Source: Adhaeribacter aerolatus (GTDB lineage: Bacteria; Bacteroidota; Bacteroidia; Cytophagales; Hymenobacteraceae). Taken from it: a stretch of 64,000 nt of DNA. The translations under genes were made by a program, and so were the position numbers. The notes under the pieces are model-generated. The model saw nothing but the letters and a program-made list of their open reading frames with translations, was not told where the DNA came from and ran no database searches. Shown here in pieces: positions 43,230 to 46,302 of the stretch (position 1 is the stretch's first letter; each line of letters opens with the position of its first letter). The stretch covers positions 62,001 to 126,000 of the forward strand of contig NZ_BJYS01000009.1 in NCBI RefSeq assembly GCF_007991635.1, read 5' to 3'.

Positions 43230-44585
43230 TTATTTATTCATCGTATTTTGGTTTAATACCCATTTCTGCACAGCTTCGGCAAAACTGCGGCCCCGGTGTT
43301 CGTAGTTCTGAAACAAATCGAAACTGGCGCAGGCCGGCGACAACAGCACCACATCGCCGGGCTGGGCCAAAGCTTTGGCCTTTTGCACCACCTCGTCTAC
43401 CGATTGCGTTTCTTCAATCACCGGAACCACCTCCCCGAATGCGCGAAACAGCTTCTCGTTTTCTTTACCAAGGCAGATCAGCGCTTTAATTTTTTCTTTG
43501 GCCAACGGTTTCAGGGTTTCGTAATCGTTGCCTTTGTCCACGCCACCGGCAATCCAAATAATTGGTTGCTTAATACCCTCCAGGGCGTACCAAACCGCTT
43601 CCACGTTGGTAGCTTTCGAGTCGTTGATGTAAGTAACGCCGTTCGCTTCGCCAACCGGCTGCAAACGGTGCTCGGCATTTCTAAAAGTTGCCAATCCTTC
43701 TTCAATCCGAAATGCTTCCGCCCCGGCCAGCAAAGCCGCTGTAACCGCTGCCAGCGTATTGTATTGGTTATGCTTGCCAATTAACGGCGAAGCCGACACA
43801 TCTATGCTTTCGGGCTTTCCGGTTATATCCGTTTGGATATTGTTACCGGTAAAGGCAGCTTTTACTCCACCAGACGGCTGTAAGGCAAATGGCACCAGGG
43901 TAGCCTGCGTATTTACTTTTACTAAATGTTCATTTATCAGCGCATCCTCCTGGTTGTAAATAAAAAAATCAGTCGGTTCCATGTTTTGGGTTATGCGCAG
44001 TTTCGATTGCGCGTAATTCCCGATGTTATAGTCGTAGCGGTCCAGGTGATCCGGGGTAATATTCAGCAGAATGGCAATGTGGGCTTTAAACCCGTACATG
44101 GTGTCGAGCTGAAAGCTGCTCAGCTCCACTACGTAATATTCAGCGGTATCTTCAATTACTTTTTCAGCCAGACTCTCGCCGATATTGCCGGCCAGTTCCA
44201 CGTTAAAACCAGCAGTTTTCAGTAAGTGGTAGGTTAAAAGCGTAGTGGTAGTTTTGCCGTTGGTACCGGTAATGCATATAAATTTGGCCTTGGAATAACG
44301 GGCGCCAAACTCAATCTCCGAGATAACCGGAATGCTTTTGGCTTTGGCCAGCTTAATAATTTCGGCTTTATCCGGAATACCCGGACTTTTAATAATTTCG
44401 TCGGCCGCTAAAATCCGTTCAAAGGTGTGCTTTCCTTCTTCAAACGGAATATTTTCATGTTGCAGTTGTTCTTTATAAGCCGGCTTAATGGTACCCATAT
44501 CCGATACAAAAACCGATAGCCCTTTGGCTTTTGCCAAAAGGGCTGCTCCTACTCCGCTCTCGCCGGCTCCCAGTATCGCTATCAT
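43230..44585 (-). CDS. murD: UDP-N-acetylmuramoylalanine-D-glutamate ligase
   Basis: Mur ligase of 451 residues that adds D-Glu to UDP-MurNAc-L-Ala. The start is IAILGAGESGVGAALLAKAKG, the ATP loop is TGTNGKTTTTLLTYHL, and later motifs are LNITPDHLDRYD, INDSKATNVEAVWYAL and LLSPACASFDLFQNYEHRG. The ATG at 44585 directly touches the repeat tract of the inserted element (CTAACGAACA-ATG), so the native leader and ribosome-binding region have been replaced by repeat sequence. Confidence 0.96.
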   Translation of the reverse strand: MIAILGAGESGVGAALLAKAKGLSVFVSDMGTIKPAYKEQLQHENIPFEEGKHTFERILAADEIIKSPGIPDKAEIIKLAKAKSIPVISEIEFGARYSKAKFICITGTNGKTTTTLLTYHLLKTAGFNVELAGNIGESLAEKVIEDTAEYYVVELSSFQLDTMYGFKAHIAILLNITPDHLDRYDYNIGNYAQSKLRITQNMEPTDFFIYNQEDALINEHLVKVNTQATLVPFALQPSGGVKAAFTGNNIQTDITGKPESIDVSASPLIGKHNQYNTLAAVTAALLAGAEAFRIEEGLATFRNAEHRLQPVGEANGVTYINDSKATNVEAVWYALEGIKQPIIWIAGGVDKGNDYETLKPLAKEKIKALICLGKENEKLFRAFGEVVPVIEETQSVDEVVQKAKALAQPGDVVLLSPACASFDLFQNYEHRGRSFAEAVQKWVLNQNTMNK

Positions 44586-44662
44586 TGTTCGTTAGTCGTT
44601 AATCGTTGTTCGTTATTCGATTTGTTTGGGTCGTTGCTCGTTAATCGTTATTAGTTGTTCGG
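44586..44662. repeat. AATAACG-word repeats, murD-proximal arm
   Basis: The main arm is at 44630-44662. Its reverse complement reads CCGAACAACTAATAACG, then ATTAACGAGCAACGAC. It matches the opposite arm at 45036-45075 except for three substitutions and one missing 7-bp unit. A second degenerate block of the same words (44586-44620) continues up to the murD ATG. The arm supplies the last codons (ARTTNND) and the stop of the four-helix-bundle gene. Confidence 0.75.
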
Positions 44663-45024
44663 GCTTTTAAGGATTTGTAATAAATGATAAAGCCATTAAT
44701 CAACTGTTTGCATTTCGTAACTTCTTCTAAACATTTAGTTATTTCATCAATTGAAATATATCCTTGGTCAGAAGCTATATATAACTGTGTTTCTAATTCA
44801 TATAAAGAGCCCCTTGCAACAAAAAAGAATTGAATGGCATCTTTCGAGTATTGACGTCCACACCCTTCAGCAATATTTGAAGGAATAGACACCCCAGCGC
44901 GGCGCATCTGACTTGTTAGTCCAAATATTTCTTCTTTCGGAAACCCCTTTGTTATTTCATAAATTTTATTTGCTAAACTTCTGCTATTCTTCCATACATC
45001 TAAATCAGTATATTGCTTACCCAT
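44641..45024 (-). CDS. Four-helix-bundle protein (23S rRNA IVP / S23 family)
   Basis: Protein of 127 residues matching the four-helix-bundle family first known from intervening sequences in 23S rRNA genes; the Avd protein of diversity-generating retroelements is a relative. Marks: YTDLDVWKNSRSLANKIYEI, GLTSQMRRAGVSIPSNIAEG, and ARGSLYELETQLYIA. Function is unknown in general; nucleic-acid binding is proposed for relatives. It sits alone between mraY and murD, breaking an otherwise dense operon, and is bracketed by inverted AATAACG-word repeats. Its last seven codons (ARTTNND) and stop lie in one of them. Its base composition is more AT-rich than the dcw genes. Confidence 0.9.
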   Translation of the reverse strand: MGKQYTDLDVWKNSRSLANKIYEITKGFPKEEIFGLTSQMRRAGVSIPSNIAEGCGRQYSKDAIQFFFVARGSLYELETQLYIASDQGYISIDEITKCLEEVTKCKQLINGFIIYYKSLKARTTNND

Positions 45025-45035
45025 CTTAATTATTT

Positions 45036-45075
45036 CCGAACAACGAATAACGAATAACGATTAACGAATAACGAC
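45036..45075. repeat. AATAACG-word repeat, mraY-proximal arm
   Basis: A 40-bp arm: CCGAACAACGAATAACG, then AATAACGATTAACG and AATAACGAC. It is inverted relative to 44630-44662. It starts 11 bp outside the four-helix-bundle ATG and ends 3 bp short of the mraY stop codon. The pair with the opposite arm defines a 493-bp insert (44586-45078). Confidence 0.8.
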
Positions 45076-45078
45076 TTC

Positions 45079-46302
45079 TTATCTCAGTTTTAAAGTGGCT
45101 AAGCTTAAAATGGCCAGCATGATGCCTACAATCCAGAACCGGGATACAATTTTGGATTCGTGGTAGCCTACTTTTTGGTAGTGGTGGTGTAGCGGCGACA
45201 TTTTAAAAATGCGGCGGCCTTCGCCGTATTTCTTTTTGGTGTATTTAAAGTAGCTTACCTGCAGCATCACCGATAAATTTTCGACCAGGAAAATGCCGCA
45301 TAAAATGGGAATCAGCAGTTCTTTGCGTACAATTAGCGCCAGCACCGCAATAATGCCGCCAATGGCCAGACTGCCCGTATCGCCCATAAAAACCTGCGCC
45401 GGGTATGAGTTGTACCACAAAAAACCGATACAAGCTCCCACGAAAGCGGTACAAAAAATTACCAGTTCGCCGGAGTTCGGGATAAACATAATATTCAGGT
45501 AATCGGCAATAATGGTGTTACCGGAAATCCAGGCAAAAACCGCCAGCGTTAAACCAATAATAGCCGAAGTGCCGGCTGCGAGGCCATCTAAACCATCAGT
45601 AATATTGGCGCCGTTACTAACGGCGGTTATTATAATGATTACAAAAGGAATGTACAGGAAACAGGCCCATTGCCCGAATATTGGTTCGGCAAACGAAAAC
45701 ATGGTGCAGTAATCCAGCTCATTGTTTTTGCGGAACGGAATACTCGTAATCATCGATTTCACATCGAGGTAAGTAGGTGAAGCATCTACCGCCGACAAAG
45801 CCCCGGTACTGCCGTTTACATATTGCCGTACCACCACATCGTCGCTCACAAACAAGGTATAGCCTACAATCAAACCCAAGCCAATCTGCCCGATGACTTT
45901 AAACCGACCAGCCAAACCTTCTTTATTTTTGCGGAACACCTTGATGTAGTCATCCAGAAAACCAATAATGCCGAGCCAAACCGTAGAAATCAGCATCAGG
46001 ATAATATAAATATTATCGAGGCGGGCAAATAGCAAAGTAGGTACCAGAATGGCCAGCAGAATGATAATGCCGCCCATAGTAGGTGTACCTTTTTTCTCCA
46101 TCTGTCCGGCCAGGCCTAAATCCCGGATGCTCTCACCTACCTGCTTCCGGTGCAACATTTTAATCAGGCGGCCGCCAAATATCATGGCAATCAGCAACGA
46201 TACCAGCGTAGCCATACCTGCCCGAAACGAAATATATTGAAAAACCCCGGCGCCGAAAAAGTCAAAATTTTCTTCGAGGTAATTAAATAAGTAGTAAAGC
46301 AT
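45079..46302 (-). CDS. mraY: Phospho-N-acetylmuramoyl-pentapeptide-transferase
   Basis: Polytopic enzyme of 407 residues that moves phospho-MurNAc-pentapeptide to undecaprenyl phosphate, making lipid I. Motifs: [16 protein letters not shown], the Asp pair in [32 protein letters not shown] and PLHHHYQK. It is longer than the usual ~360 residues because of an extra loop near [15 protein letters not shown], which is common in Bacteroidota. A 83-bp gap separates it from murE. Confidence 0.96.

Follow-up and report, generated by a model that had tools for sequence, protein, structure and literature searches.

In the stretch of 64,000 nucleotides of the Adhaeribacter aerolatus genome analyzed here (the window), the dcw genes follow each other closely except at the mraY-murD junction, which raises the question of what fills this gap, how it came to be there, and whether it belongs to a known kind of element. 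A first-pass annotation, made from the sequence alone, had proposed a small mobile element composed of one S23/IVP gene between inverted arms. Our findings suggest that the insert is one of a class of genetic elements that have attracted little notice and spread slowly, with a protein that may read the repeated word at their own ends.

An S23 gene with heptad arms between mraY and murD

As stated in the first-pass annotation, the dcw genes are tight except between mraY and murD, where the gap measures 493 bp (44586-45078) and contains a single gene, of the S23/IVP family; no other gap between main genes in the mraW-ftsW interval exceeds 118 bp. That this gene lies between inverted arms is borne out by an ungapped alignment of 31 nt (44589-44619 versus 45044-45074) in which the arms are 94% complementary. 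The agreement at 30 of 33 bases previously given for the arms was not reproduced. Apart from the 31-nt alignment, we obtained a gapped one of 39 versus 41 nt with a score of 28 (99% control level for flank scores, 19.3 in the first set of 73 loci and 21.4 in the set of 172 loci described below). The 7-bp unit, proposed to be AATAACG, is indeed a 7-bp word, but is better written as TCGTT followed by two variable bases. Likewise, inverted arms are present, but the murD side holds two arrays rather than one (Table 1).

Table 1. Features of the mraY-murD insert and its neighbors, in the order of transcription
Feature	Position in the window	Strand	Description
mraY	45079..46302	-	upstream neighbor
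5' array, mraY side	45037..45074	-	five TCGTTNN words, transcription sense; begins 4 bp past the mraY stop
S23/IVP (23S_rRNA_IVP, PF05635) gene	44641..45024	-	127 aa, four-helix bundle
Inner 3' array	44630..44661	-	four words of the same TCGTTNN kind; overlaps the last S23 codons and stop
Outer 3' array, murD side	44586..44619	-	four TCGTTNN words (+ strand reading) plus partials; abuts the murD start codon
murD	43230..44585	-	downstream neighbor

In the sense of transcription, the mraY stop codon is thus followed by 4 bp, the five-word array (45074-45037), the S23 gene, the inner array of four words in complementary orientation (44661-44630), 10 bp, the outer array (44619-44586), and the murD start codon. 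The S23 stop codon (44641-44643) lies within the inner array, which also encodes the final residues of the protein. The pattern TCGTTNNTCGTTNNTCGTT has 40 matches in the same genome (overlaps counted), whereas the reversed control pattern has none, which argues against the heptad word being a chance repeat.

As RNA, the 493-nt insert is predicted to fold with the arms as its outer stem (-115.4 kcal/mol, z -4.03 with 100 shuffles). In this predicted fold it has the long stem made of terminal inverted repeats that characterizes 23S rRNA intervening sequences (IVS), but it lies between mraY and murD rather than inside a 23S rRNA gene. The adjacent reverse transcriptase and template repeat of Avd genes in diversity-generating retroelements (DGR) are missing, the insert being an S23 gene alone with mraY and murD as neighbors. 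Its one ORF, S23, is neither a transposase, as expected of an insertion sequence or transposon, nor a nuclease. No target-site duplication is visible by eye when the insert is compared with the 1-bp junction of G004, a comparison in which the two flanks are not near-identical.

Sequence and predicted structure of the S23 protein

The protein encoded by the insert matches PF05635 with 134.8 bits (curated cut-off 33.8, E 1.6e-39), whereas its match to the bAvd profile PF22296 (23.1 bits, E 1.1e-4) is below the cut-off of 40; it has no match among the nuclease families in Pfam. The predicted structure (pLDDT 94.9) consists of four helices and resembles 2gsc (TMq 0.82-0.87) and 2rld (TMq 0.75-0.77), each of which contains five chains. 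Weaker matches (E 0.016 or weaker), with TMq values of ∼0.70-0.75 and 7-12% identity, include Avd (4dwl) and DGR reverse-transcriptase complexes. In PMC4990558, 2gsc is described as a toroidal homopentamer, and S23/IVP proteins are said to have no known function. By analogy with this five-chain homologue, the window S23 protein would be a homopentamer as well.

S23 genes are carried by 81 of 98 relatives. Comparison of the window S23 gene with the copy at the same mraY-murD junction in G007 gives a dN/dS of 0.066, and of eight pairs of related S23 genes, seven give ratios of 0.03-0.11 and the eighth is saturated. These low values indicate that the protein is under strong purifying selection. 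Because synonymous sites differ by 51-84% in the eight pairs, unconstrained DNA close to S23 would have drifted far.

S23 genes of several phyla have inverted heptad arms

The genome of A. aerolatus has five PF05635 matches, all of which, by eye, lie between two same-strand genes and have repeat arms of differing words. One of them, between two ABC permease genes (L013, 1438-2000), uses 8-bp words instead of 7-bp words. For a wider survey, 189 S23 loci were gathered, mostly from Bacteroidota and none chosen for arms; 80 of these were picked by rank from two match lists (60 and 20), and five were mraY-site loci. The profile finds S23 in 187 loci, of which 177 are full length, 174 are distinct and encode proteins shorter than 200 aa, and 172 remain once two near contig ends are dropped. 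The left flank of each locus was then scored against its reverse-complemented right flank, with the flanks of mismatched loci as control.

The median flank score is 21, compared with 10 for mismatched loci, and matching inverted flanks are found above the 95% control level at 142 of the 172 loci and above the 99% level at 80. S23 genes therefore lie between arms far above chance, in support of the first-pass annotation, rather than having no link to arms that occur at random positions. A period-7 tract (15 of 21 or better) is present at 133 of the 172 loci, whereas lags of 4-6 and 9-12 give 2 to 9 and a lag of 8 gives 26. In the first set of 73 loci (from an initial 80, seven of which were skipped because of contig ends or frames), 54 are above the 95% level and 39 above the 99% level, the best lag being 7 in 36 of these 39. 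Outside Bacteroidota, loci above the 95% level include those of Omnitrophota (L078, L080), Methylocystis (L087), Nitrospira (L083), and Acidobacteria (L096). None of 187 S23 loci contained a 23S motif when screened crudely for four such motifs.

Anatomy and seating of the arms

At loci with a period-7 arm, the same word is found on both arms in 115 of 132 cases, versus 38 of 132 for random partners. Each word has two weakly conserved positions, which are adjacent in 56 of the 115 loci (one-third expected), and in the 5' arm G exceeds C at 108 of the 132 loci and is exceeded by it at 16. Using a seed-free method (earlier core counts, which relied on a 28-nt seed, are biased at 4 and above), we identified 259 tracts in 344 flanks, with a median length of 33 and a mode of 31-33. 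This modal length fits an array of five 5-nt cores and four 2-nt spacers, i.e. 33 nt.

The arms are closely fitted between the neighboring genes, in keeping with the tight fit claimed for the original insert. In 96 loci with strong arms and neighbors on the S23 strand, the median distance from the upstream stop codon to the beginning of the 5' arm is 0 bp, with 62 loci between -6 and +20. For the 3' arm, the median distance from its end to the next in-frame start is 7.5 bp, and 63 loci do not exceed 20 bp; this second estimate is less exact since the start-codon search began 12 bp inside the arm. The neighbors are codirectional at 152 of 168 S23 loci, with S23 on their strand in 144, against baselines of 96/133 and 139/179 that rest on crude gene calls and with loci at one site not being independent. 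RNA pairing was considered as the sole constraint on the arms and rejected. Mismatches between the arms, read on the S23 sense strand, are not clearly skewed to G-U over A-C (69 versus 53 in 39 loci), and in-register matching is weak: of 101 loci, 56 exceed the mean of heptad-shuffled arms and 43 fall short of it (summed z 2.46). A stem is still compatible with weak in-register pairing, because a shift by one word retains most core pairs.

Related S23 proteins at unrelated sites share the word

The word differs between elements and is common not only to the two arms but also to related S23 proteins at unrelated sites. Among pairs of S23 loci from different sites, word similarity does not change with protein identity until the latter reaches 50%, and increases above this value. 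The share of pairs with a word similarity >0.6 is 4-8% when protein identity is <0.5, and then becomes 31% (identity 0.5-0.55), 42% (0.55-0.6), and 49% (0.6-0.7). In 562 different-site pairs of 0.5-0.7 identity, from 118 loci, word similarity is 0.562 versus 0.464 in permutations (0/5000) and 0.474 in GC-stratified permutations (0/5000), neither of which matched lineages. When the clade of the window is excluded, the remaining 264 pairs give 0.519 versus 0.464 permuted (0/5000) and 0.483 GC-stratified (0/5000). A Mantel test over all different-site pairs is weak (rho 0.065, 25/1000), the signal being in pairs above 50% identity. The link between word and S23 relatedness is apparent by eye at the thiolase/acyl-CoA dehydrogenase site, where the main S23 clade mostly carries AAGAC, TAGAT, or GTATC words, and L075 and L139, which are members of the clade of the window, carry TCGTT-like words. 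No different-site pair exceeds 70% identity among 132 S23 proteins and no recent transposition was thus detected, so movement, if any, is rare on the scale sampled (one genome per species).

The mraY-murD junction in relatives

Although mraY is detected in 59 of 59 genomes, the junction was read in the 30 genomes obtained as loci, with repeats judged by eye. An S23 gene is present at six of the 30 junctions (G000, G006, G007, G009, G014, and G025, from three genera), all six with TCGTT-type arms; in G009 the S23 frame is interrupted. Five junctions have inverted repeats without S23. Of these, G001, whose mraY is 99% identical to that of the window, has another word, GTTGTNN, and G008 and G013 have ATTGTTG-type words. 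In the other two, G016 and G028 (L036 and L037), the inverted repeats are different-looking and made of CGCAGTG. The gap is 36 bp or less at ten junctions, including G004, where extending mraY to its stop codon leaves 1 bp, and 65-286 bp at the other nine. Filled and empty sites thus both exist, as the first-pass annotation had suggested comparing, and relatives do not all have the same gene in a genome devoid of other arms. In G021 (C1:637-1840), mraY is matched in two frames, which reflects a frameshift or an assembly fault.

Five of the six proteins encoded at mraY-murD cluster in a phylogeny of 36 S23 sequences (support 84/90), and monophyly of the six is not rejected (p-AU 0.303). We therefore dropped the idea of repeated insertion at this junction, for which polyphyly would be expected. 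The mraY-murD copy looks old and largely vertically inherited, and the simplest history of the junction is an old insertion followed by losses and replacements, rather than frequent movement.

Arms without S23 genes in other intergenic gaps

In S23-bearing genomes, arm pairs or single arrays without S23 fill other intergenic gaps. Ten such genomes contain 61 intergenic period-7 tracts in 1200 kb, two of which are the window's own arms, whereas eight S23-free genomes (100 kb each, including the same-genus G004) contain one in 800 kb. Two S23-bearing genomes are exceptions, G010 and G045, which have eight S23 genes each and zero and one tract, respectively. At lags of 5, 6, 8, 9, 10, and 11, the counts are 4, 1, 3, 0, 2, and 5 in the S23-free genomes versus 10, 6, 33, 14, 13, and 13 in the S23-bearing ones, lag-8 tracts hence amounting to 3 in 800 kb versus 33 in 1200 kb. 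GC content is high (0.56-0.60) in G010 and in three of the eight S23-free genomes, and G009 has five tracts at 0.55. Because of these GC-rich S23-free genomes, and because S23-free samples have less intergenic DNA, composition may share in the contrast. With a criterion (fit 0.75) that proved too stringent to be informative, an inverted partner was found for eight of the 61 tracts. In G000 and G001, each of the 19 tracts for which both neighbors were called lies between codirectional genes. Over ten genomes the proportion is 45/60, equal to the baseline (96/133 and 139/179), and a preference of S23-less arms for operons was dropped.

The words of these arms are related to the S23 genes of the same genome. 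For 59 non-S23 arms from nine genomes, the S23 words of the own genome are closer than those of other genomes (0.619 versus 0.560, 1/5000), in a comparison that was not filtered for coding sequence and for which only some S23 genes of most genomes were read. Arms of the TCGTT word are not tied to the S23 gene of the insert, since the exact TCGTT pattern occurs at 18 other sites in the A. aerolatus genome, none of them at the five PF05635 matches. TCGTT matches abound in G001, G008, and G013, for which no TCGTT S23 is known (2/3, 0/5, and 4/6 of their S23 genes read, respectively). By hand count, AAGAC has extra matches off the S23 locus in five of eight genomes with a known AAGAC S23 (none in G017, G018, and G059) and in 9/90 other genomes. 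GTATC was also counted by hand: of four genomes known to have a GTATC-type S23, three have extra matches and G001 has none, and matches occur in 17/94 other genomes, S23-free G066 among them. Whole-genome word counts were thus rejected as proof of dependence in trans, the results for AAGAC, GTATC, and TCGTT being mixed. As S23 genes were not all read in the 98 genomes, the "other" genomes may hide some with a matching word.

Interpretation of the S23 insert

In the reading that accounts best for these findings, and to which we give about an even chance, the insert would be an S23 element, one of a widespread class and a relative of 23S rRNA IVS, with a pentameric protein that reads the word. 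The element would consist of one S23/IVP gene and inverted arms of about five 7-bp words, seated from the mraY stop to the murD start. Each subunit of an S23 pentamer might contact one 5-nt core of an arm, successive cores being separated by 2-nt spacers, in a manner comparable to the way in which the TRAP ring reads its triplets. Binding to its own arms, and to matching ones elsewhere, would let S23 maintain and occasionally spread these units. They could survive between genes because a hairpin-bounded insert would leave both neighbors expressed, in the way that RNase III excision does for 23S rRNA IVS. Since S23 proteins at different sites are at most 70% identical and five of the six from mraY-murD group together, the element looks old and slowly turned over rather than actively hopping. 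The small mobile element initially proposed is therefore upheld as regards arms, tight fit, and filled and empty junctions, but not as regards recent transposition or a fixed association of arms with the gene. A broader version, which is tentative and for which we see somewhat less than an even chance, is that S23 genes drive a widespread transposase-free class of elements with heptad-coded ends, the five cores being read by the pentamer and the word being subfamily-specific, that same-word arms elsewhere depend on them in trans, and that 23S rRNA IVS are a special landing site.

S23 could instead be a post-transcriptional regulator, with arms by start codons as operators, S23-less arms as its regulon, an autoregulated S23 gene, and nothing mobile. 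This would account for arms that adjoin stop and start codons, for the excess of codirectional neighbors at S23 loci over the baseline, for arms off S23 loci that match the words of their own genome, and for a transcribed insert predicted to fold with the arms as outer stem. MacGregor 2015 (PMC4679880) proposed translational regulation for TAACTGA heptamers ahead of start codons. We nevertheless find a regulator unlikely, since one-sided binding does not explain an inverted word at both ends, arm mismatches are not clearly biased towards G-U over A-C, close relatives have at one junction S23 with arms, other arms, or nothing, and S23-less arms are no more frequent inside codirectional pairs than expected. 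Less likely again is that heptad arrays are a general intergenic minisatellite produced by polymerase slippage or template switching, with S23 genes as passengers that tolerate such gaps. The near absence of tracts from eight S23-free genomes (with the caveat of composition) and the link between word and S23 subfamily across sites argue against it, even though S23-less arms outnumber S23 genes, both in the A. aerolatus genome and in the sampled stretches, and the in-register match of the arms is as weak as for independently homogenized arrays. Finally, another enzyme, e.g. a reverse transcriptase, might move the element in trans with S23 as an Avd-like adaptor. The similarity of the predicted S23 fold to Avd and DGR complexes would fit, as would the need of a phage DGR target for a hairpin or cruciform, located downstream from the variable repeat and close to the mtd stop (PMC3240598), but the Avd matches are at 7-12% identity and we regard such a mobilizer as highly improbable.

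Relation to known systems

Searches of open-access literature identified no report of heptad arms on S23 genes, the nearest systems being the rRNA intervening sequences and the TAACTGA heptamers. The insert shares with 23S rRNA IVS the protein family, a single ORF, inverted termini forming a stem, and suspected mobility. According to PMC4990558, the stem of the Coxiella IVS is 28 bp with one mismatch and a bulge. Unlike these IVS, the S23 element lies between protein genes, its arms are arrays of words, and S23-less arms are scattered genome-wide. The TAACTGA repeats of Beggiatoaceae, Cyanobacteria, and some Bacteroidetes are likewise tandem 7-mers and mostly intergenic, end a few nt ahead of start codons, and are in some cases inside operons (PMC4679880). 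They differ in being one fixed word arranged as direct repeats; the genome analyzed in that study has 169 sets and a single indirect repeat. The term S23 is absent from the text of PMC4679880, the author of which sought an unknown repeat-binding protein that is possibly itself the mobile element.

Other systems are more distant. The predicted S23 structure shares the fold of DGR Avd (TMq about 0.70-0.75 to 4dwl and DGR complexes), which is a pentamer, but Avd acts together with a reverse transcriptase and a template repeat, both of which the mraY-murD insert lacks, and the bAvd profile match is below cut-off. REPIN/RAYT and MITE systems are short inverted units scattered in intergenic gaps that rely on a protein encoded elsewhere, and S23 arms are similarly short inverted units in intergenic gaps. 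RAYTs are nucleases, whereas S23 has no Pfam nuclease match and its arms are tandem words.

The link between protein and word provides a concrete ligand hypothesis for S23/IVP, a very common family in the genomes compared, and makes S23 a candidate for the kind of heptamer-binding protein asked for in PMC4679880. If true, it would amount to a protein-read repeat code and to a transposase-free colonization of the gaps between genes, and rRNA intervening sequences would belong to a larger class.

S23 genes on plasmids and in close proximity

S23 has no match in phages, and its matches in plasmids comprise 29 records, mainly from cyanobacteria. In the three cyanobacterial plasmid loci inspected, arms are present by eye. 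A heptad-armed S23 gene (by eye; L285, 1492-1848) lies between cas10 and cmr3 in the type III-B CRISPR operon of a Picosynechococcus plasmid. Elsewhere, several S23 genes are a few kb to tens of kb apart (G194:C14:42155-78965 and G126:C1:1511147-1513301) and perhaps form clusters or arrays.
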